Assembly (NCBI GenBank): GCA_020853095.1
Contig: JADYZN010000055.1
Span: 124,001-188,000 of the forward strand
Source of the DNA: Phycisphaerales bacterium
GTDB lineage: Bacteria > Planctomycetota > Phycisphaerae > Tepidisphaerales > Tepidisphaeraceae
Length of the DNA stretch: 64,000 nucleotides
Direction: 5' to 3'
Shown here piece by piece: positions 38,168 through 49,350 of this stretch. Position 1 is the stretch's first letter. Each line of letters begins with the position of its first letter. The notes under the pieces were generated by a model. That model had not been told where the DNA came from and ran no database searches. It saw only the letters and a list, made by a program, of their open reading frames with translations. A program made the position numbers and the translations under genes.

Positions 38168-40174
38168 TTATGGGCGATTTTCAACGGCGACCGCCCGGCG
38201 GAAATGCCGCCAGGCGACCCATTTTTCGAAAAACGACTCGCGTTGATGGTATTGGTCGAGCAGTTTCCGGCGTGGGTCGGCCGGTTCCAGTTTTATCATG
38301 CTGTTGCCGTCCAGGTGATAAAGTTGCGAATGGCCGTTGCGTTCATCCCATTCATACAAGATTCCATTGTCGAGAATGGCGTCGATCTGGGCGTGCTGGA
38401 TGGTTAGATAGGAGACTCTCGCGGGGATGGAGTCGGCCATCAGATCGCGGCCGAGCCATTGTGCGGGGGATTGGAGGCCGACCATTGACAGGAGCGTCGG
38501 CGAGACGTCGATGTGGCTGGTGAACAGCCGGCTTTGCAGGGCGTTGGGGAACAGCTTGGGGTTGGAGATGATGAAGGGCGTCCAGATTTCCTCGGGTGTC
38601 AGGGAGATGCCATGGCTGACGGGGTAGGTGGAGACTGTTTCGCCGTGGTCGCCGACGATGACGATCAGGGTATTGTCCAGCAGGTTCATCCGGCGCAGGC
38701 TTTGCACCAGCCGGCCGACGTTGGCATCGGCGTAGTGCAGCGAATTGCGATAACGGTTCAACCAGGTGTCATCGGGGTAGGGTTTGTCATCGCTGGGACA
38801 CAGATAGGGGTGATGAGGGAAGATCGTGGAATAGAGGAGGAAAAATTTGTGTTGGCCGTGGGATTGCAGCCATTGGTCCATGGCATCGACGGTTTGTTCT
38901 TCGCGTACGCCCCAGCTCCAGGGGAGCGGTTGGTTGTTCCAGAGGTCGCGGGCGTCCACGAGCTTGTCAAAGCCTTTGGATCGAAACAGGAAGTTCAAAT
39001 TGGCGTAGCTTAAAAACCCCGAATGGAACAGGGCGGTCTGGTATCCATTTTGTTTGAGTTGTTCGGCCAGGCTGGGTTGGGGCAGCGGCCGGCCGTAGAT
39101 GAGGCTGATGTTGGAGCCGATGTTCAGGAGATAATCCGAATAATACAGGCAATAGGAGGAGCGTTCGGTCTGGGCAAAGACGGTGGCGTGGTGGGTGAAG
39201 CTCAAGCCATGGTCCGCCAGCGCCATGATGTTGGGGGTGGTTTGGCGGTCCATGTGGACGGCCGTCGTGGATTCCAACTGGATGATCAGGATGTTCATCT
39301 CCCGGCCGACGGATGGGCGGGAAAAATCCCGCTCCATGAGCCGGCCGTGTTGCTGGATCGAATCGGTGGGCTGCTGGTTGTCGCCATAGTTGGAGAATTC
39401 TCCCTGCAATTTCTTCAATCGTTGCTGAACGTCGATGGAGGTGATCGGCGGTTGATAGTGTTTGATGAAAAAGACGACGGCGTTCTGTTTGATGCCGTAG
39501 GTGTCAAATCCGGACAACCGGACGGTCCACAATCCGAACCCGATCACCGTGACGGCCGCGCAGAACACCCAGAGGCGGGCGGGCGTCGCGATCCATTTCC
39601 ATCGACCCAGCAGCCATTGCAATGGCCGAATCAGCAGCGGCCAGATCGACAGTCCCAGGGCGATCAGGATCAGCGGGGCGATGCCCGCATAGGCCATGAT
39701 CGACGCCCGGACGATGGCCGGATCATCGGCCGAACGCAGCAGGCGGATTTCCAGCGGCGAGCCATACATCTCGTTGACCTGAAGGCTGATGACCGCGAAG
39801 AGGGCCATCGCGACATGAACCGCATAGGGCACGCCGCGCGACACCAGCCAGCGCAACGGCGTCGGCGTCCGGCGGGAGATGGCTTGCAGGATTCGATAGA
39901 AGATCGCCAGCGCGAAACAAAGCAGCAGATCGGCCCCAAACAGGTAAAAAACCCCGTCGGGCGGCAGGTCGGCCAGCGGATTGACGCCATGCAGGCGCCA
40001 ATACCAGACCAGCAGATAAAGTTTCAAAATGCCAAGAAAGATCAATAAACAAGCCGCCGCGGCCAGACTGAAACGGTCGGCGGAGGCGTTGGGTGCGGCC
40101 GGTGAATCGATATCCTGCTGCAAGGAGATGCCCTCTACTGTAAAAAGTGTAACGGACGATACGGATTTGTTCAA
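38168..40174 (-). CDS. LTA synthase-like sulfatase-domain membrane protein
   Basis: 668 residues. Five N-terminal membrane helices, then an extracytoplasmic alkaline-phosphatase-superfamily domain from about residue 290: NILIIQLESTTAVHMD (metal Glu), the Thr nucleophile region in FAQTERSSYC, FPHHPYLCPSDD, and IVIVGDHGETV with metal Asp-His. This is the layout of LTA synthase and of phosphoglycerol or phosphoethanolamine transferases, which modify glycans or lipids on the outer face of the membrane. Neighbouring genes give no further hint. The start is ATG 40174. Confidence 0.87.
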   Translation of the reverse strand: MNKSVSSVTLFTVEGISLQQDIDSPAAPNASADRFSLAAAACLLIFLGILKLYLLVWYWRLHGVNPLADLPPDGVFYLFGADLLLCFALAIFYRILQAISRRTPTPLRWLVSRGVPYAVHVAMALFAVISLQVNEMYGSPLEIRLLRSADDPAIVRASIMAYAGIAPLILIALGLSIWPLLIRPLQWLLGRWKWIATPARLWVFCAAVTVIGFGLWTVRLSGFDTYGIKQNAVVFFIKHYQPPITSIDVQQRLKKLQGEFSNYGDNQQPTDSIQQHGRLMERDFSRPSVGREMNILIIQLESTTAVHMDRQTTPNIMALADHGLSFTHHATVFAQTERSSYCLYYSDYLLNIGSNISLIYGRPLPQPSLAEQLKQNGYQTALFHSGFLSYANLNFLFRSKGFDKLVDARDLWNNQPLPWSWGVREEQTVDAMDQWLQSHGQHKFFLLYSTIFPHHPYLCPSDDKPYPDDTWLNRYRNSLHYADANVGRLVQSLRRMNLLDNTLIVIVGDHGETVSTYPVSHGISLTPEEIWTPFIISNPKLFPNALQSRLFTSHIDVSPTLLSMVGLQSPAQWLGRDLMADSIPARVSYLTIQHAQIDAILDNGILYEWDERNGHSQLYHLDGNSMIKLEPADPRRKLLDQYHQRESFFEKWVAWRHFRRAVAVENRP

Positions 40175-40245: not shown

Positions 40246-41559
40246 ATGAGAAAATATTTCATCGTTCGCAGTTGGGTGGTGGGTCTGGTCGTGATGGTGA
40301 TGCTGGCGGCCGGCACCACGGCATCGGCCCAGTTTGGCAATACTGACAACGCGCCTGCCCGGACCGGCCGGGGGTATGAGGTGAGTGTCAACAATCCGGT
40401 GTTTCTGATTTTGCCGGGAATGAATGAGGCGCCCGCGCCCGACTGGGTGAAGCCGGGTGTGCGGTTGACGTTTTTCAATGTCGTCGCCATGGTTCCCAAG
40501 GGTGACATTGCCGACATGTTGCCGGATGAGCGGGGCCGGTGGATCGATCCGAATACCGGCAAAACCTTCAGCGTGCAGAAGAACAAGGGATCATATGATG
40601 AAGGATATATGCAACTGGATGTGTTGTCGCTGCCGGGCGATGCGGTGGCGGTCGCGGCGCGCGGTTACAGTAAAGACCTGATGGACGGGTCGATCAAGCC
40701 GATCTTCAGCGGAGGGTTTGTCGCGCTGCCGGGGGCGGGCGAGGATTGGTGGGTGAATCCGGATGTGTTGAACCAGACGGTGGATCATTTGCAAGGTCCC
40801 GTCGTCCAGTCGCTGCGCCTCCGGGAACAGGCGGCGGGCAATGAATACGACGCGGTCTGGATCAACACCAAAACCGAGGGAGGATACGCCTCCAGGACCT
40901 ATGATCTGGACAGCGGGTTGACGTTGAACCTCCGCAGCAGCAATACAACCAAGCCGGATGGCATGGTCAATCTTAACGGCGAGCAGTTGCGTGTCGGCGG
41001 CGCCGCTTATCTGACCGAGGCCAAATTCGTGGGGATGCGGCAGGTCAACGTCCCATGGATCGGCATGCCCATGCCCAGGACCATGGAGGGCGTGCGGCAA
41101 CTGGTCTACGAAGGGGAGATGACCTCGACGATGCTGGGCAACACGATCGGCACGCCAATGAGGATGGTCATTGATGTCACCGGCCGGGGGCCGAACTTCA
41201 TCCAGATGAAACGGACGATCACGTTTCATCCCGCCAACGGCACGCCGCCGCCGGAAAGCGTCTCCCGGATCGTCGGTGGAGTCAATCAGCTTCTGCCTCT
41301 TTGTGTCCCGCCGAAAGCGCTGGCGCAGCTGCGCAACGGACAGGTGATCGACAAGGACCCCTTCACCAATGTCACCACCTTTGTCTCGTTCATCGGGCAG
41401 GATCGATCGGGCAACGATGTCATCACGCTGACGGAGTACATCAACGAAAAAAGCGTCCGATACGACGTGGTCTATGATGCCAACAGCGGGTTGATGATTG
41501 CCTCCCAGTTGAGCGTTCCTCAGTTGAACATGCAGGTAACGCTCTATCTCGTGCAGTAA
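40246..41559 (+). CDS. Exported protein of unknown family, tandem paralog 1
   Basis: 437 residues from ATG 40246 (GAAGGA seven bases before). Signal peptide with MLAAGTTASAQ, cleavage after SAQ or ASA, mature end FGN. Shared with the three following paralogs in the same order: PDWVKPGVRLTFF, WVNPDVLNQTVDHLQGP, EYDAVWINTKTEGG, YDLDSGLTLNLR, FVGMRQVNVPWIGMPMPR, LLPLCVPPKALAQLRNGQVI, DKDPFTNVTTFVSFIGQD, TLYLVQ at the end. No membrane segment, sorting signal or cysteine pattern. Predicted beta-rich. I do not recognise the family. Confidence 0.85.
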   Translation: MRKYFIVRSWVVGLVVMVMLAAGTTASAQFGNTDNAPARTGRGYEVSVNNPVFLILPGMNEAPAPDWVKPGVRLTFFNVVAMVPKGDIADMLPDERGRWIDPNTGKTFSVQKNKGSYDEGYMQLDVLSLPGDAVAVAARGYSKDLMDGSIKPIFSGGFVALPGAGEDWWVNPDVLNQTVDHLQGPVVQSLRLREQAAGNEYDAVWINTKTEGGYASRTYDLDSGLTLNLRSSNTTKPDGMVNLNGEQLRVGGAAYLTEAKFVGMRQVNVPWIGMPMPRTMEGVRQLVYEGEMTSTMLGNTIGTPMRMVIDVTGRGPNFIQMKRTITFHPANGTPPPESVSRIVGGVNQLLPLCVPPKALAQLRNGQVIDKDPFTNVTTFVSFIGQDRSGNDVITLTEYINEKSVRYDVVYDANSGLMIASQLSVPQLNMQVTLYLVQ

Positions 41560-41575
41560 AAATCGGAGATATCTT

Positions 41576-42880
41576 ATGTCAGTGTGCGGATGGGTTGGGG
41601 GAATGGTCGTGATGGCGATGCTGGCGGCCGGCACCACGGCGTCTGCCCAGTTTGGCAACCAGGAGAACAATCCCCGGCCGGATGCCCGCCATGGTTACCA
41701 GATCGACACCAACAACCCGTTGTTTTTGATCTTCCCCGGATTGAAAGAAGCGCCCTCCCCCGACTGGGTGAAGCCGGGAATGCGGGTGACGTATTTTTCC
41801 GCCAGCGCCACCATCCCACGAGGCGATATCGCCGGACTGGTTCAGGATACTGAAGGTCGCTGGATCGACCCGGCCACCGGCCAGCCATATCGAGTGGAGT
41901 ATAATCGGGGTTCTTATGGTGATGGATACAACCAGCTTGATGTGGTGTCACTGAACGAAGATGCCGTGGCTTATACATTGCGTGCCTATGGCAACGACTT
42001 GATGGGCGGGCCGGTCCGGCAGTTGTCTTCGACCGCCGGCATCACACTGCCGGGGGCCGCCGCCGACTGGTGGATGAACCCGCGGGTGTTGGACCAGACG
42101 GCCGACAACCTGCGGGGGCCGGGCGTCAAGTCGGCGCGCATTGCCTACAAGCTGGACGACGAGCAATACAATGCGGTCTGGATCAGCACCAAAACCGCCG
42201 GTGGATACACGTCCAGCGTGATCGACTTGTCCAGCGGGTTGACGCTTCATTACAGCAGCAGTTACACATCCAGGCCCGACGGTGTGACCAACCTGGACGG
42301 CTCGTCCATCAAGGTCGGCGGCGGCACCAGCCTCGGGATGACCACATTCAAGGGCATGCGTCAATTAACCGCTCCGTGGATTGGCATGCCTATGCCCAAA
42401 TCGCTGGAGGGTGTCCGGCAAATGGTCTACGAAGGTGAGATGGCCATGACGATGATGGGCAACACGCTCAGCAAGCCGATGCGGGTGGTTTATGACTTTA
42501 CCGGCAGGGGGAAGGATTTCATCGCGATCAAAAGGACGACCCGGATTGACATGCAAAATGGCATGCCCCAGGAGGATGTCGTTTCCACCACATTGAGCGG
42601 CTCCCACCAGCTTCTGCCCATGGCCATCCCGCCGCGGGCGCTGGCACAGCTGCGCAACGGCCAGGTGATCGACAAGGACCCCTTCACCAAAGTCAACACG
42701 TTCGTGTCGTTCATCGGCCAGGACCCATCAGGTGATGAGGTGGTGACCCTGACCGAGTACATCGATGAAAAAGCCACGCGGATGGATTACGTCTATCAGC
42801 TCAACAGCGGCATCCTGAGTGCCATGCAATTTTCCGATCCGACGATGAACACTAAAAACACAGTGTATCTGGTGCGATAA
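41576..42880 (+). CDS. Exported protein of unknown family, tandem paralog 2
   Basis: 434 residues; 16 bases after paralog 1, with GGAGAT before ATG. Signal peptide MLAAGTTASAQFGN nearly identical to paralogs 1 and 3, then QENNPRPDARHGYQIDTNN as in paralog 3. Conserved blocks: PDWVKPGMRVTYFSASATIP, GYNQLDVVSL, PGAAADWWMNP, YNAVWISTKTAGG, LLPMAIPPRALAQLRNGQVI. It differs from 1 in the middle and end. The ASATIPRGDIAG segment is shared with 3 and 4 but not 1. Function unknown. Confidence 0.87.
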   Translation: MSVCGWVGGMVVMAMLAAGTTASAQFGNQENNPRPDARHGYQIDTNNPLFLIFPGLKEAPSPDWVKPGMRVTYFSASATIPRGDIAGLVQDTEGRWIDPATGQPYRVEYNRGSYGDGYNQLDVVSLNEDAVAYTLRAYGNDLMGGPVRQLSSTAGITLPGAAADWWMNPRVLDQTADNLRGPGVKSARIAYKLDDEQYNAVWISTKTAGGYTSSVIDLSSGLTLHYSSSYTSRPDGVTNLDGSSIKVGGGTSLGMTTFKGMRQLTAPWIGMPMPKSLEGVRQMVYEGEMAMTMMGNTLSKPMRVVYDFTGRGKDFIAIKRTTRIDMQNGMPQEDVVSTTLSGSHQLLPMAIPPRALAQLRNGQVIDKDPFTKVNTFVSFIGQDPSGDEVVTLTEYIDEKATRMDYVYQLNSGILSAMQFSDPTMNTKNTVYLVR

Positions 42881-42895
42881 AACCGGAGGTTTCTC

Positions 42896-44203
42896 ATGTC
42901 GATGCGCAAATGGACAGGGGGCGTGGTCGTGATGGCGATGCTGGCGGCCGGGACTACGGCGTCGGCCCAGTTTGGCAACCAGGAGAACAATCCTCGGCCG
43001 GATTCCCGCCATGGTTACCAGATCGACACCAACAATTCCGCGCTGCTGATCTTCCCCGATCTGCGGACGGCCCCGGCCCCCGACTGGGTGAAGCCGGGGA
43101 TTCGACTCACCTATTATTCGGCCAGTGCCACCATCCCTCGAAGCTATGTTGGCGGCATGGTGCAGGATCCCAAGGGCGATTGGGTCGATCCAAAGTCCGG
43201 CAAGAAATATCGCATGGACGACGCCGCCAGCGCTTCGGGGCATGGTTACAGCCAACTGGATGTGATTTCCCTGACCGATGATGCGGTGGTGCTGGACCTT
43301 CGCGCCCTGGGGATCGAGGGGGTGGATGGCCCGGTCCGGCCGATCTCCGCCTCCGGCCTGACGACCCTTCCGGGGGCGGCCGCCGACTGGTGGGTGAACC
43401 CGGATGTGCTCAACAAGACCGTGGACAACCTCAACGGTTCGGGGATGAGGTCCGTGCGCACCACCTACAAGGCGGCCGGTCAGGAATTTGACGCGGTCTG
43501 GGTCAGCACCCAAACCGGCAACGGGTCGATTTCGTATGTCATCGACCTGACCGGCGGGATGTTGCTGCACAACGCCACCTGCACATCCACCGGCCCCACC
43601 GGCACGAACAACCTCAACGGAGTGCCGACACAGATCGGCGGCAGCACCAGCCTGGGGCAGACCACCTTCGTGGGGATGCGCCAGATTCACACCCCCTGGG
43701 AACGATCGCCGATGCCCCGTTCGCTCAATGGCGTCCGACAACTGGTCTACGATGGGCAAACCCGCATGACCGTCGAGGGGGTTTCGGCCGACATCCCGAT
43801 GCGGGCGATCGTGGAGATCACCGGCCGGGGACCTGATTTCATCCAGTTCAAAAAGACGGTCAAGACCGACACCCGCGGCAGCATCATGCAGCAGCCCGAT
43901 GCGGTCTCCAGTTGCGTCAGCGGGATGCACCAGCTTTTGCCGTTGTGCATTCCGCCGCAATCGCTGGCCCAATTGCGCAACGGCCAGGTGATCGACAAGG
44001 ACCCCGTCACCAAGGTCAACACGTTTGTCTCCTTCATGGGTCAGGATACCTCCGGCAACAACGTCGTCACCCTGACCGAATTCATCGCCGACAACGCCAC
44101 CCGCACCGATTATGTCTACGAAGCCGCCAGCGGCATCCTCTGCGCTGTGCAGATGACCGACCCGACGTTGCACACGCAGACCACGCTGTATCGGGTCAAA
44201 TAA
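42896..44203 (+). CDS. Exported protein of unknown family, tandem paralog 3
   Basis: 435 residues; 15 bases after paralog 2, GGAGG before ATG. The first 45 residues are almost identical to paralog 2, while the last 90 are almost identical to paralog 4 (VNTFVSF, TRTDYVYEAASGILCAVQMT). Blocks PDWVKPGIRLTYYSASATIP, PGAAADWWVNPDVLNKTVDN and FDAVWVSTQTGNGSISYVID are kept. The mosaic pattern points to gene conversion. No known domain. Confidence 0.87.
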   Translation: MSMRKWTGGVVVMAMLAAGTTASAQFGNQENNPRPDSRHGYQIDTNNSALLIFPDLRTAPAPDWVKPGIRLTYYSASATIPRSYVGGMVQDPKGDWVDPKSGKKYRMDDAASASGHGYSQLDVISLTDDAVVLDLRALGIEGVDGPVRPISASGLTTLPGAAADWWVNPDVLNKTVDNLNGSGMRSVRTTYKAAGQEFDAVWVSTQTGNGSISYVIDLTGGMLLHNATCTSTGPTGTNNLNGVPTQIGGSTSLGQTTFVGMRQIHTPWERSPMPRSLNGVRQLVYDGQTRMTVEGVSADIPMRAIVEITGRGPDFIQFKKTVKTDTRGSIMQQPDAVSSCVSGMHQLLPLCIPPQSLAQLRNGQVIDKDPVTKVNTFVSFMGQDTSGNNVVTLTEFIADNATRTDYVYEAASGILCAVQMTDPTLHTQTTLYRVK

Positions 44204-44227
44204 AACAATCTCTCCAAGAGGATATGT

Positions 44228-45526
44228 ATGGGCACATGGAAGAGAATGGTGGGGCTGATGGTGCTGGTCGTGCTGCTGGGAAGCGGCGGGGTGATGGCGC
44301 AGTTCGGCAATTCGCCCCAAGGGAAGGGTTCCGGCCAGTTGGGCTATGAGATCGATACCGACAACCCCGTATTGCTAATCTTTCCCGGCCTGCGGACGGC
44401 CCGGGCCCCCGACTGGGTGAAGCCGGGATTGCGTTTGTCGTTCTATTGTGCCAGCGCGACGATCCCCAGCAGCCATGTCGGGGGTATGGTGCAGGACCCC
44501 GACGGCAAATGGGTCGATCCGACCACGGGCAAGACCTTCCGCATGGAGGAAGGCACCGGCGCCGCCGGCCACGGGTACAACCAGTTGGACGTGGTCTCGA
44601 TGACTGATGATGCGGTGGTGTTGGAACAGCGGTTTTACGTCTTCAGCGACGTCAGCGGCCCGGTGAAGATGGTCTCGGCCACCGGCGGTACCACTGTGCC
44701 GGGGGCGGCCGCCGACTGGTGGATGAATCCGGACGTTCTCAACCGGGAGATCGACTCTCTCGGCGGGCAGGGGGTCAAAACCTTCCGCACTCCCTACAAG
44801 GCGGCGGGGAACCAATACGATGCGGTCTGGATCAACACCACCGCCGGCGGCGGTTCGATGTCCTACGTCATCGATCTGGCCGGCGGGTTGACGCTGCACA
44901 CCGGATCGCGTTCCTCGGCCGCCGCCGGCACGGCCACCCTCAACGGCGTGCCGACCAACGTCGGCGGACACACCACGCTTGGACAGACCACCTTCGTGGG
45001 GATGCGCCAAGTCCAGGCCCCGTGGATCGGCAAACCGATTCCCCGGTCGTTTGGCCGGGTACGTCAACTGGTTTACGAGGGGCAGAACGTCGTAACGGTC
45101 GAGGGGGTCTCGGCACGCATGCCGATGCGGGTGGCCATCGACATCACCGGCCGGGGTCCGGGGTTCGTTCAGACGAGAAAAACCGTGAGGATCGACTACC
45201 AGGGGGCGATGCCCGCAGAGGAAAACACCTCACGGGGCGTCAGCGGCAACCACCAGCTTCTGCCGTTGTGCATTCCGCCGCAATCGCTGGCCCAATTGCG
45301 CAACGGCCAGGTGATCGACAAGGATCCAATCACCAAGGTCAACACGTTTGTCTCCTTCATCGGCCAGGATCCAGCCGGCAACGATGTCGTTACGATCACT
45401 GAGTTCATCGCCGAGAACGCCGTGCGGACCGATTACGTCTACGAAGCCGCCAGCGGCATCCTCTGCGCGGTGCAGATGACCGATCCTCCGCTGCACACGC
45501 AGTACACCCTCTATCGTGTGCGCTAA
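44228..45526 (+). CDS. Exported protein of unknown family, tandem paralog 4
   Basis: 432 residues; 24 bases after paralog 3, AGAGGAT before ATG. Its signal peptide (RMVGLMVLVVLLGSGGVMAQ) is unlike that of 1-3, but the mature part follows the same block order: PDWVKPGLRLSFYCASATIP, PGAAADWWMNPDVLN, YDAVWINTTAGGGSMSYVID, LLPLCIPPQSLAQLRNGQVI, TDYVYEAASGILCAVQMTDP. The UbiA-type gene follows directly, so it may be part of the same transcript. Confidence 0.87.
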   Translation: MGTWKRMVGLMVLVVLLGSGGVMAQFGNSPQGKGSGQLGYEIDTDNPVLLIFPGLRTARAPDWVKPGLRLSFYCASATIPSSHVGGMVQDPDGKWVDPTTGKTFRMEEGTGAAGHGYNQLDVVSMTDDAVVLEQRFYVFSDVSGPVKMVSATGGTTVPGAAADWWMNPDVLNREIDSLGGQGVKTFRTPYKAAGNQYDAVWINTTAGGGSMSYVIDLAGGLTLHTGSRSSAAAGTATLNGVPTNVGGHTTLGQTTFVGMRQVQAPWIGKPIPRSFGRVRQLVYEGQNVVTVEGVSARMPMRVAIDITGRGPGFVQTRKTVRIDYQGAMPAEENTSRGVSGNHQLLPLCIPPQSLAQLRNGQVIDKDPITKVNTFVSFIGQDPAGNDVVTITEFIAENAVRTDYVYEAASGILCAVQMTDPPLHTQYTLYRVR

Positions 45527-45569: not shown

Positions 45570-46583
45570 ATGCTCGTGCGTCTCTCCGGCCGACTGCTTT
45601 CGCTGCTGCAACTGACCCGCATGGCGCTGGTCTTCACCGCCATCGCCGACAGCGCCTGCGGTCTGCTGCTGCGTTGGCGGGCCGCCGGCCGCGGGGGGGA
45701 TGCGATGCCGGGGTCGATCGACTGGCGACAGCTCATTTGCATCGCAGCGGTCTCCGTGGGGTTGTACGGCTTTGGCATGAGCCTCAACGACATCATCGAC
45801 CATCGGCGCGACCGCCAGCTTGCCGCTCATCGTCCGCTGCCCAGCGGCCGGATGGGGGTGGTCGGGGCGCACGTGATCTGCATCCTGCTGGCGTTGCTGG
45901 CCCTGGCGGCGGCGATTTACTATTCCCAACAGATCCCGCGCGGCTGGATGAGCCTGGTTTTGGTCATCGGCACCTTCGGGCTGATCGGTTTCTACGACTT
46001 CGCCGGCAAATACCTGGTCGCCCCCGGGTTGCTGACCCTCGGCCTGATCCGTTTCTGTCACGCCGCCATCCCCGCCCCCACCACGCCGTTGATCTGGCAT
46101 CCGCTGCTGCTGCTGAACCACGTCACGATCCTCTCGACGGTCGCCTACCGCTGGGAGCAAAAACGTCCCCCCCTGACCGCCTGGCACTGGCTGCTGATCC
46201 TGGGCGGCCTGGGGATGGTGGACCTGACCGTGGTGGGGCTGGCGACCTGGCAACGGTGGCGGGGGGGATTGTCCTTCGCCTCGGCCCTCTGGATCACCCC
46301 CGGCTTGTGGCTTCCACTGATCGCCGCGGGCGCGTTTGTGCTGCTGGCGGCCTACATCCGCCTGCGCAGCCGCTCGATCCGCTCGGCCGGCCAACAACTG
46401 ATGCTCTACGGATTGCTCTGGCTAATCGTTTACGATGCGGCCTTCGCCCTGGGATACATCGGCCCACGGTCGGCCGGATTGATTCTCCTGCTGGCCCCCA
46501 TCGCCTGGCTGAGCGTACAACTCATCCGCTGGTGGGCGGGCCTGGCGATGCTGACGCGAACACCGACTTTCCGCAGGGCGTAG
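45570..46583 (+). CDS. UbiA family prenyltransferase-like membrane protein
   Basis: 337 residues, about eight or nine membrane helices. The first Asp-rich motif is NDIIDHRRDRQLAAHRPLP, the hallmark of UbiA; a second DxxxD-type site appears as FYDFAGKYL. It should transfer a prenyl chain onto an aromatic or sugar acceptor in the membrane. Start choice: GGGAGG lies right before ATG 45570, so GTG 45576 two codons later is spaced better; an in-frame GTG at 45516 overlaps paralog 4. It might correspond to EboC of the ebo cluster, given the EboB-like protein at 60943, but the two are 14 kb apart. Confidence 0.85.
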   Translation: MLVRLSGRLLSLLQLTRMALVFTAIADSACGLLLRWRAAGRGGDAMPGSIDWRQLICIAAVSVGLYGFGMSLNDIIDHRRDRQLAAHRPLPSGRMGVVGAHVICILLALLALAAAIYYSQQIPRGWMSLVLVIGTFGLIGFYDFAGKYLVAPGLLTLGLIRFCHAAIPAPTTPLIWHPLLLLNHVTILSTVAYRWEQKRPPLTAWHWLLILGGLGMVDLTVVGLATWQRWRGGLSFASALWITPGLWLPLIAAGAFVLLAAYIRLRSRSIRSAGQQLMLYGLLWLIVYDAAFALGYIGPRSAGLILLLAPIAWLSVQLIRWWAGLAMLTRTPTFRRA

Positions 46584-48303: not shown

Positions 48304-49350
48304 TTATTCCTTGGGCAATTCGATTTTCCAGATTTGGGCGAATTCGGCCAGGTGATCGCGGAGCAGTTGGACGTTCGGGGCGGGGGATTGGGGGCGGGAT
48401 TCTTCGTATTGTTTGAGGCTTTGGTCGAGGGTCTCGGCCAGCAGTTTGCCCGATTCCTGGAGTTGCTCAATTTGTTGGCGCGTGGAGGCGATGGCGGAAT
48501 CGTTTTCCTGCTTAACCTGTTCCTTCTCCTGGTCTGTTTGCGGGATTTCAGGATGATCGGCCCGTTGTTGGGCGGCGGCCAGTTGGGCGTTCAGATCGTC
48601 CACGGAAGCCTGTTGTTCCTTCTGGCGTTCCTGGCCGTCGGCGATGGCCTGGCGGGCGTTGTCGGCATCGGCTTTTCGGTCGTTGATGAAAGATTCGCGT
48701 TCATCGGGGTCGGTCAGGTCGGCCGGAGGATTTTTCGCCTGTTCCTCGGCCTTCTGTGCGGCGGCCTGATGTTCGGCGATCTGGGTGGTGGTCTCCTGCA
48801 ACGCTGTCCGGGCCTGTTCAAGCTGTTCGTTCAGGCCGGCGATTTGTTCCTTGGCGTTGTCGATGGCGCGCTGGCGATCGTCATCGCTCAACACGCGGAG
48901 GCCTTTTTTCTGAGCTTCTTCATGGGCGGCCAGCTTGGCCTTGGCGGCGGCCAGTTGTTCGTCGTTTTTCTTGACTCCTTGTTCGAGTTCGGCCTTCATT
49001 TTGGATTCGGTCTGTTCCCAGACGATCACCATGTAGGCTTCCCATGTTTTGCCGCCGACCCAGAGCCATTCATCCAACGTCGTGTTGTGGCTGGCGAGAA
49101 TGGCCTGAAATTTCTGGTTGGATCGGCCGGCGATGGCCATCGCCCCCAGACCCGAGGCGTTTTGGGCCGCCTGCCCGGCGGCTTCCTGCAACTTGACGAA
49201 TTCCCGCGTGCAGTCGAGGTAGTTGGTCAACTGCAGCTCGGTGTAAACACCGTCGGCCGGCTCTTCAAACGCCGGCTCATCGGCCCGCACGCCGCCGGCC
49301 AACCCCAGAATCAGTGCCAACCCAAATGCAAATTTCTTTGCGAATAACAC
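48304..49350 (-). CDS. Exported coiled-coil protein
   Basis: 348 residues. Signal peptide (FAFGLALILGLAGGVRA), then a folded region of about 90 residues with LDCTREFVKLQEAAG and WVGGKTWEAYMVIV, and from residue 115 to about 310 a Glu/Gln/Ala/Lys-rich heptad region, probably long coiled coil, with DLTDPDERESFINDR interrupting. The C-terminal end HLAEFAQIWKIELPKE is compact. No domain known to me; a periplasmic structural or scaffolding role is plausible. Confidence 0.8.
   Translation of the reverse strand: MLFAKKFAFGLALILGLAGGVRADEPAFEEPADGVYTELQLTNYLDCTREFVKLQEAAGQAAQNASGLGAMAIAGRSNQKFQAILASHNTTLDEWLWVGGKTWEAYMVIVWEQTESKMKAELEQGVKKNDEQLAAAKAKLAAHEEAQKKGLRVLSDDDRQRAIDNAKEQIAGLNEQLEQARTALQETTTQIAEHQAAAQKAEEQAKNPPADLTDPDERESFINDRKADADNARQAIADGQERQKEQQASVDDLNAQLAAAQQRADHPEIPQTDQEKEQVKQENDSAIASTRQQIEQLQESGKLLAETLDQSLKQYEESRPQSPAPNVQLLRDHLAEFAQIWKIELPKE

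Follow-up and report, generated by a model that had tools for sequence, protein, structure and literature searches.

A four-gene array of exported planctomycete proteins built of two homologous halves with a probable LolA-like fold

Four consecutive genes in the stretch of planctomycete DNA analysed here (64,000 nucleotides, called the window below) encode paralogues of a family that is, judging by sequence, uncatalogued, planctomycete and made of exported soluble proteins, and that is named in none of the curated libraries searched. Profile comparison shows every protein of this family to be an internal duplication of two homologous halves, and structure prediction makes a LolA-like fold of both halves likely, though not proven. 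The best explanation, which we hold with about as much doubt as confidence, is that the array encodes tandem-amplified exported proteins whose two LolA-like halves serve as periplasmic carriers or receptors of apolar ligands. The features on which the analysis rests are the following.

38168..40174, minus strand: gene of a divergent sulfatase/LTA-synthase-like membrane protein, upstream of the array; a neighbour in the genus only, judged outside the system
40246..41559, plus strand: copy 1 (W1), 437 aa, an exported protein of two repeats; the fastest-diverging copy, grouping with copy 1 of the sister genome SJ194
41576..42880, plus strand: copy 2 (W2), 434 aa; the second structure model is of its N half
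42896..44203, plus strand: copy 3 (W3), 435 aa; 1:1 orthologue of SJ194 copy 2
43067..43687, plus strand: N-terminal, predicted LolA-like half of copy 3 (residues 58-264), an example of repeat 1, from HHalign to the C half and the structure model
43688..44200, plus strand: C-terminal, predicted LolA-like half of copy 3 (residues 265-435), an example of repeat 2, from HHalign; the best-modelled part
44228..45526, plus strand: copy 4 (W4), 432 aa; 1:1 orthologue of SJ194 copy 3
45570..46583, plus strand: UbiA-family prenyltransferase gene, downstream of the array; kept in the order without the array and judged outside the system

The array and its family

The four open reading frames are intact and co-directional, with intergenic gaps of 16, 15 and 24 bases and a Shine-Dalgarno-like motif upstream of each start (AAGGA, GGAG, GGAGG and GAGG), and their products share 50-64% pairwise protein identity. 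They are exactly the four consecutive exported paralogues of 437, 434, 435 and 432 residues, spaced by 15-24 bases, that a first-pass annotation of this DNA had described. Inspection of the sequences also bears out the signal peptides assigned there to all four copies, which are typical, with Lys or Arg in the n-region, a hydrophobic stretch and A-S-A or V-M-A followed by QFGN. As the signal peptide ends before QFGN and no lipobox Cys was seen by the same inspection in any of the four, export through signal peptidase I is the natural reading, and the export signal marks the array proteins as exported. No sorting or anchoring signal was seen in these proteins. The shared sequence blocks reported earlier are present in all copies with small deviations, namely VTTFVSFIGQD in copy 1 and SFMGQD in copy 3.

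The earlier statement that no recognised family is represented holds as well. Indeed, W1-W4 gave no usable match to Pfam and NCBIfam at E values up to 10, nor did 16 family members against Pfam at E values up to 1 (best E 0.14), and the family found no match in PHROGs or among PDB sequences searched by profile. On another contig, C53, the window's own genome (G000) carries a fifth copy, which is divergent at about 30% identity; an OXA beta-lactamase assignment for this paralogue was set aside as noise, the match having E 0.081 and 11.9 bits where the cut-off is 400.

All occurrence counts for the family apply within Planctomycetota. Members are present in 8 of the 26 genomes of the order and in 17 of 392 genomes drawn evenly across the phylum, where they are patchy and mostly single-copy, and the C half alone as query recovered the same 17 genomes; the plasmids searched held none. 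An independent tandem triplet occurs in another family of the same class (L061, contig G322:C12, 7860-12106). Furthermore, three members in three genomes (L011, L026 and L027) carry an N-terminal PDZ domain fused to the family domain, which suggests docking to protein partners in some cases. Small N-terminal beta-rich repeats (YxGxI..G....G.F..) were also observed in L011, L027, L012 and L014, and are without Pfam match in L011 and L027.

Internal duplication and predicted fold

The first-pass annotation had found no domain apparent, a view that profile analysis does not support. With a profile built from 35 family sequences, HHalign aligned the N half (residues 58-266) to the C half (residues 267-434) with a probability of 98.1 (E 1.3e-13, score 86.5, 153 columns), against a maximum score of 20.1 in 60 column shuffles and of 9.5 in the reversed control, and the probability was still 98.1 when only the 26 distant members from outside the genus were used. 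Furthermore, an HMM of the C half picked up the N half in several single-copy members, with E values of 5.8e-7, 5.1e-6 and 6.2e-5 for three genomes of the order and weaker matches in further genomes. Three pairs of motifs correspond between the N and C halves: P.WVKPG.RLTYY with P.P..L..VRQLVYEG, WWVNPDVL with LCIPPQSLAQL, and YVIDL.GGMLL with YVYEAASGILCA. Complete frames have both halves, no convincing stand-alone half protein was found, and the shorter family matches are mostly contig ends or broken frames.

AlphaFold2 models were built from seven close sequences only, distant relatives not being included. The full-length model of copy 3 has a pLDDT of 52.7, with values of about 75-86 over the last 85 residues (from residue 351). 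Because MAFFT misaligned the halves in a mixed alignment of N and C halves, the N half of copy 2 was modelled apart (pLDDT 61.7); its model has four strands, a short helix and then five or six strands, and the C half is similar. Foldseek matched the full-length model to DUF1329 (1.8e-4), MucB/RseB (3.9e-4 to 1.3e-3) and LolA (1.6e-3), and gave VioE as the top match of the N-half model (6.8e-4), RseB being matched by both models. In the structural comparison, the VIA Z scores of the C half were 10.4 for LmcA, 9.1 for DUF1849, 9.0 for 3fzx, 7.8 for LolA and 7.6 for LppX, and those of the N-half model were 9.7 for DUF1849, 9.7 for 3fzx, 9.6 for LmcA, 7.5 for VioE, 7.2 for LolA, 7.0 for LppX and 6.9 for RseB.

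The LolA fold superfamily has been listed as LolA, LolB, VioE, RseB, LprG and EPDR1, its unifying trait being a hydrophobic ligand bound in a curved sheet (PMC6363788); the criterion taken here (CATH 2.50.20 clam) is an 11-stranded curved antiparallel sheet with a helical lid and an apolar pocket. All six of these proteins stand in the match lists of both halves at Z scores of about 6-8 with models of pLDDT 52.7 and 61.7, a range of Z that counts as common for the comparison tool; LmcA, DUF1849 and 3fzx alone are clearly above 8. A LolA-like fold of both halves is likely according to these models, and is graded as short of proven in view of the modest models and of how common Z scores of 6-8 are. 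Membership at the level of sequence was rejected for LolA (PF03548) and LolA_like (PF17131), with no Pfam match and HHalign probabilities of at most 0.3 using phylum-specific alignments, against 92.1 in the positive control of LolA versus LolA_like (same-phylum sets), and also for DUF3108 (PF11306; HHalign probability 0.1-0.5, no hmmscan match). Of the checks proposed at first pass, profile searching gave no sequence match and structure prediction a LolA-like resemblance of middling-confidence models.

Comparison with known systems helps to place the family. The periplasmic lipoprotein carriers LolA and LolB (PF03548 and relatives) are exported like the array proteins, LolA being also soluble, and their curved antiparallel sheet with a helix is predicted in both array halves; however, similarity at the sequence or profile level is absent, and the array proteins have two homologous clams per chain and are amplified in tandem. 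The mycobacterial lipoglycan protein LmcA (MSMEG_0317), which has enclosed cavities thought to bind lipid (PMC8972800), stands near the top of the structural matches for each half, but it forms one elongated barrel of about 270 residues whereas the array halves have 170-205, and the superpositions have an rmsd of 3.7-5.8. DUF1849 (6ntr) and the YmcC-like 3fzx, both exported proteins, give high and stable Z scores (9.0-9.7) for both array halves, yet they are single-domain proteins whose function is not known, and the array family has no Pfam match to any such model.

Array evolution

The sister genome SJ194 (L006) carries three copies at the same locus, and the seven array genes of the two genomes form one clade in the tree (support 100/100). 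Within this clade, W3 with SJ194 copy 2 and W4 with SJ194 copy 3 pair as orthologues (support 100), and W1, W2 and SJ194 copy 1 form a trio of less certain placement. The first orthologous pair is 78.6% identical in amino acids (dN 0.144, dS 0.672) and the second 84.7% (dN 0.096, dS 0.968), giving a dN/dS of about 0.1-0.2 by NG86 with moderately saturated dS; as dN is well below dS, the 1:1 orthologues are under purifying selection.

The copies exchange sequence, or so their identical tracts suggest. Indeed, W2 and W3 are 93% identical in DNA over codon columns 26-65, in the signal peptide and linker, where W3 and its orthologue are 77% identical. Starting at codon column 367, W3 and W4 have a run of 64 identical bases, which exceeds all 1000 shuffles, against a longest identical run of 26 bases between W3 and its SJ194 orthologue. 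Since these long tracts exceed what W3 shares with its orthologue, they are read as apparent gene conversion within the array, the near-identical signal peptide and linker DNA of W2 and W3 forming one such apparent tract in 41576-43100. The block identity around LAQLRNGQVIDKDP among the window copies is partly an apparent conversion tract of copies 3 and 4, so that part of the block sharing noted at first pass has this origin; the motif is conserved in the wider family too. The locus is probably a genus-level tandem amplification of the exported family.

Possible roles and gene neighbourhood

Each array protein consists of a signal peptide, then a flexible linker (about 35 residues) and a pair of homologous halves (residues about 58-265 and 266-435). 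For each half the prediction is a LolA-type beta-clam or half-barrel, in which strands are followed by a short helix, located at the W(V/M)NP..L or IPP..LAQL motif, and by more strands. Each half may bind an apolar ligand (a lipid, a lipoprotein acyl chain or similar) on the concave face of the sheet, the whole protein would then be a twin-pocket carrier or receptor in the periplasm, and the duplicated copies may have diverged for different ligands or partners. More tentatively, and with doubt prevailing, the family could be an undescribed planctomycete set of twin-pocket periplasmic lipid carriers, in which a fused LolA-like pair came to handle different cargo through tandem amplification and gene conversion and serves lipid or lipoprotein traffic. 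The first-pass annotation had proposed a new envelope or matrix system. An envelope location is likely, while the results neither show a structural matrix nor call for one, and the locus is probably a genus-level expansion of greasy-molecule-binding envelope proteins rather than a wholly new system.

Among the other readings, the place of RseB and MucB among the best Foldseek matches and the protein contacts implied by the PDZ fusions would suit a sensor or regulator, in which a LolA-like receptor for mislocalised lipids or lipoproteins signals to a membrane partner and the halves divide sensing and docking. RseB/MucB is also periplasmic and two-domain with a LolA-like domain. However, the second domain of RseB is a separate dimerisation domain (PMC6363788) and not a repeat of the first, whereas the array halves are homologues; the regulator context is absent at the array, with no anti-sigma or sigma gene among the Pfam-identified window neighbours and no recurrent gene neighbour around 20 family loci; and four similar copies would be odd for such a role, which we consider rather unlikely. 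VioE shows that a LolA-like fold can be an enzyme, and its rank as top match of the N-half model, together with the invariant Trp, Asp and Pro residues of the family, could point to catalysis on a LolA-like scaffold that uses the conserved Trp/Pro/Asp motifs. We give this little credit: the invariant residues are mostly Gly, Pro and Trp with a few Asp, as one would expect of turns and fold, a conserved His/Cys/Ser set was not found among them, and VioE itself is cytosolic (PMC6363788).

The tandem arrangement, the export signal, the high similarity and the gene conversion among copies are what one might expect if a structural matrix or surface-layer protein had been amplified to raise its dosage, but the proteins are without a visible sorting or anchoring signal, the relatives are mostly single-copy, and the model is two-lobed and lipid-carrier-like rather than a repeat of adhesive domains. 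Furthermore, the 1:1 orthologues keep their differences, which favours distinct roles over dosage, and we find a matrix role doubtful. A functional unit with the UbiA prenyltransferase and LTA-synthase-like genes, handling for instance a prenyl lipid or a polyol phosphate lipid, would agree with the order LTA-synthase-like gene, array, UbiA gene common to both genus members, in which the neighbours are about 80% identical, and these neighbours, with a B12-binding radical SAM gene that also lies downstream of the array, are kept in SJ194 at 71-90% identity. This coupling had been suggested at first pass, with co-occurrence in other planctomycetes as the check, and adjacency was found only in the genus. 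UbiA orthologues exist in 22 of the 26 genomes of the order, but the array and the other tested window genes are absent from the UbiA surroundings in all 12 relatives examined, and a UbiA or LTA-synthase-like gene was found at none of 20 other family loci, nor does the radical SAM gene lie near the other loci of the family. As a general rule such a unit is largely refuted, and even at this locus we hold it to be improbable.

The array offers a concrete gene set, from an exported family of two predicted LolA-like halves, with which to test lipid and lipoprotein movement across the planctomycete periplasm, a process that is, to our knowledge, poorly known. It also suggests a route for the diversification of carrier families, with intragenic duplication followed by tandem gene amplification and gene conversion. 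If the proteins are truly twin-pocket carriers, they would bear on lipid and lipoprotein traffic in a diderm phylum with LolA in a minority of the sampled genomes; if the resemblance is only at the level of the fold, the new family definition is still useful for annotation. LolA (PF03548) was found in 22 of 59 planctomycete genomes sampled, and in the window's own genome the search found no PF03548 LolA and a weak, sub-threshold LolA_like match on contig C38 (E 5.6e-5). Two minor observations concern other genes of the window: the UbiA-family gene at 45570-46583 resembles EboC weakly, with 63 bits where the cut-off is 250, and 48304-49350 on the minus strand encodes an exported, Gln/Glu-rich, coiled-coil-like protein without Pfam match.
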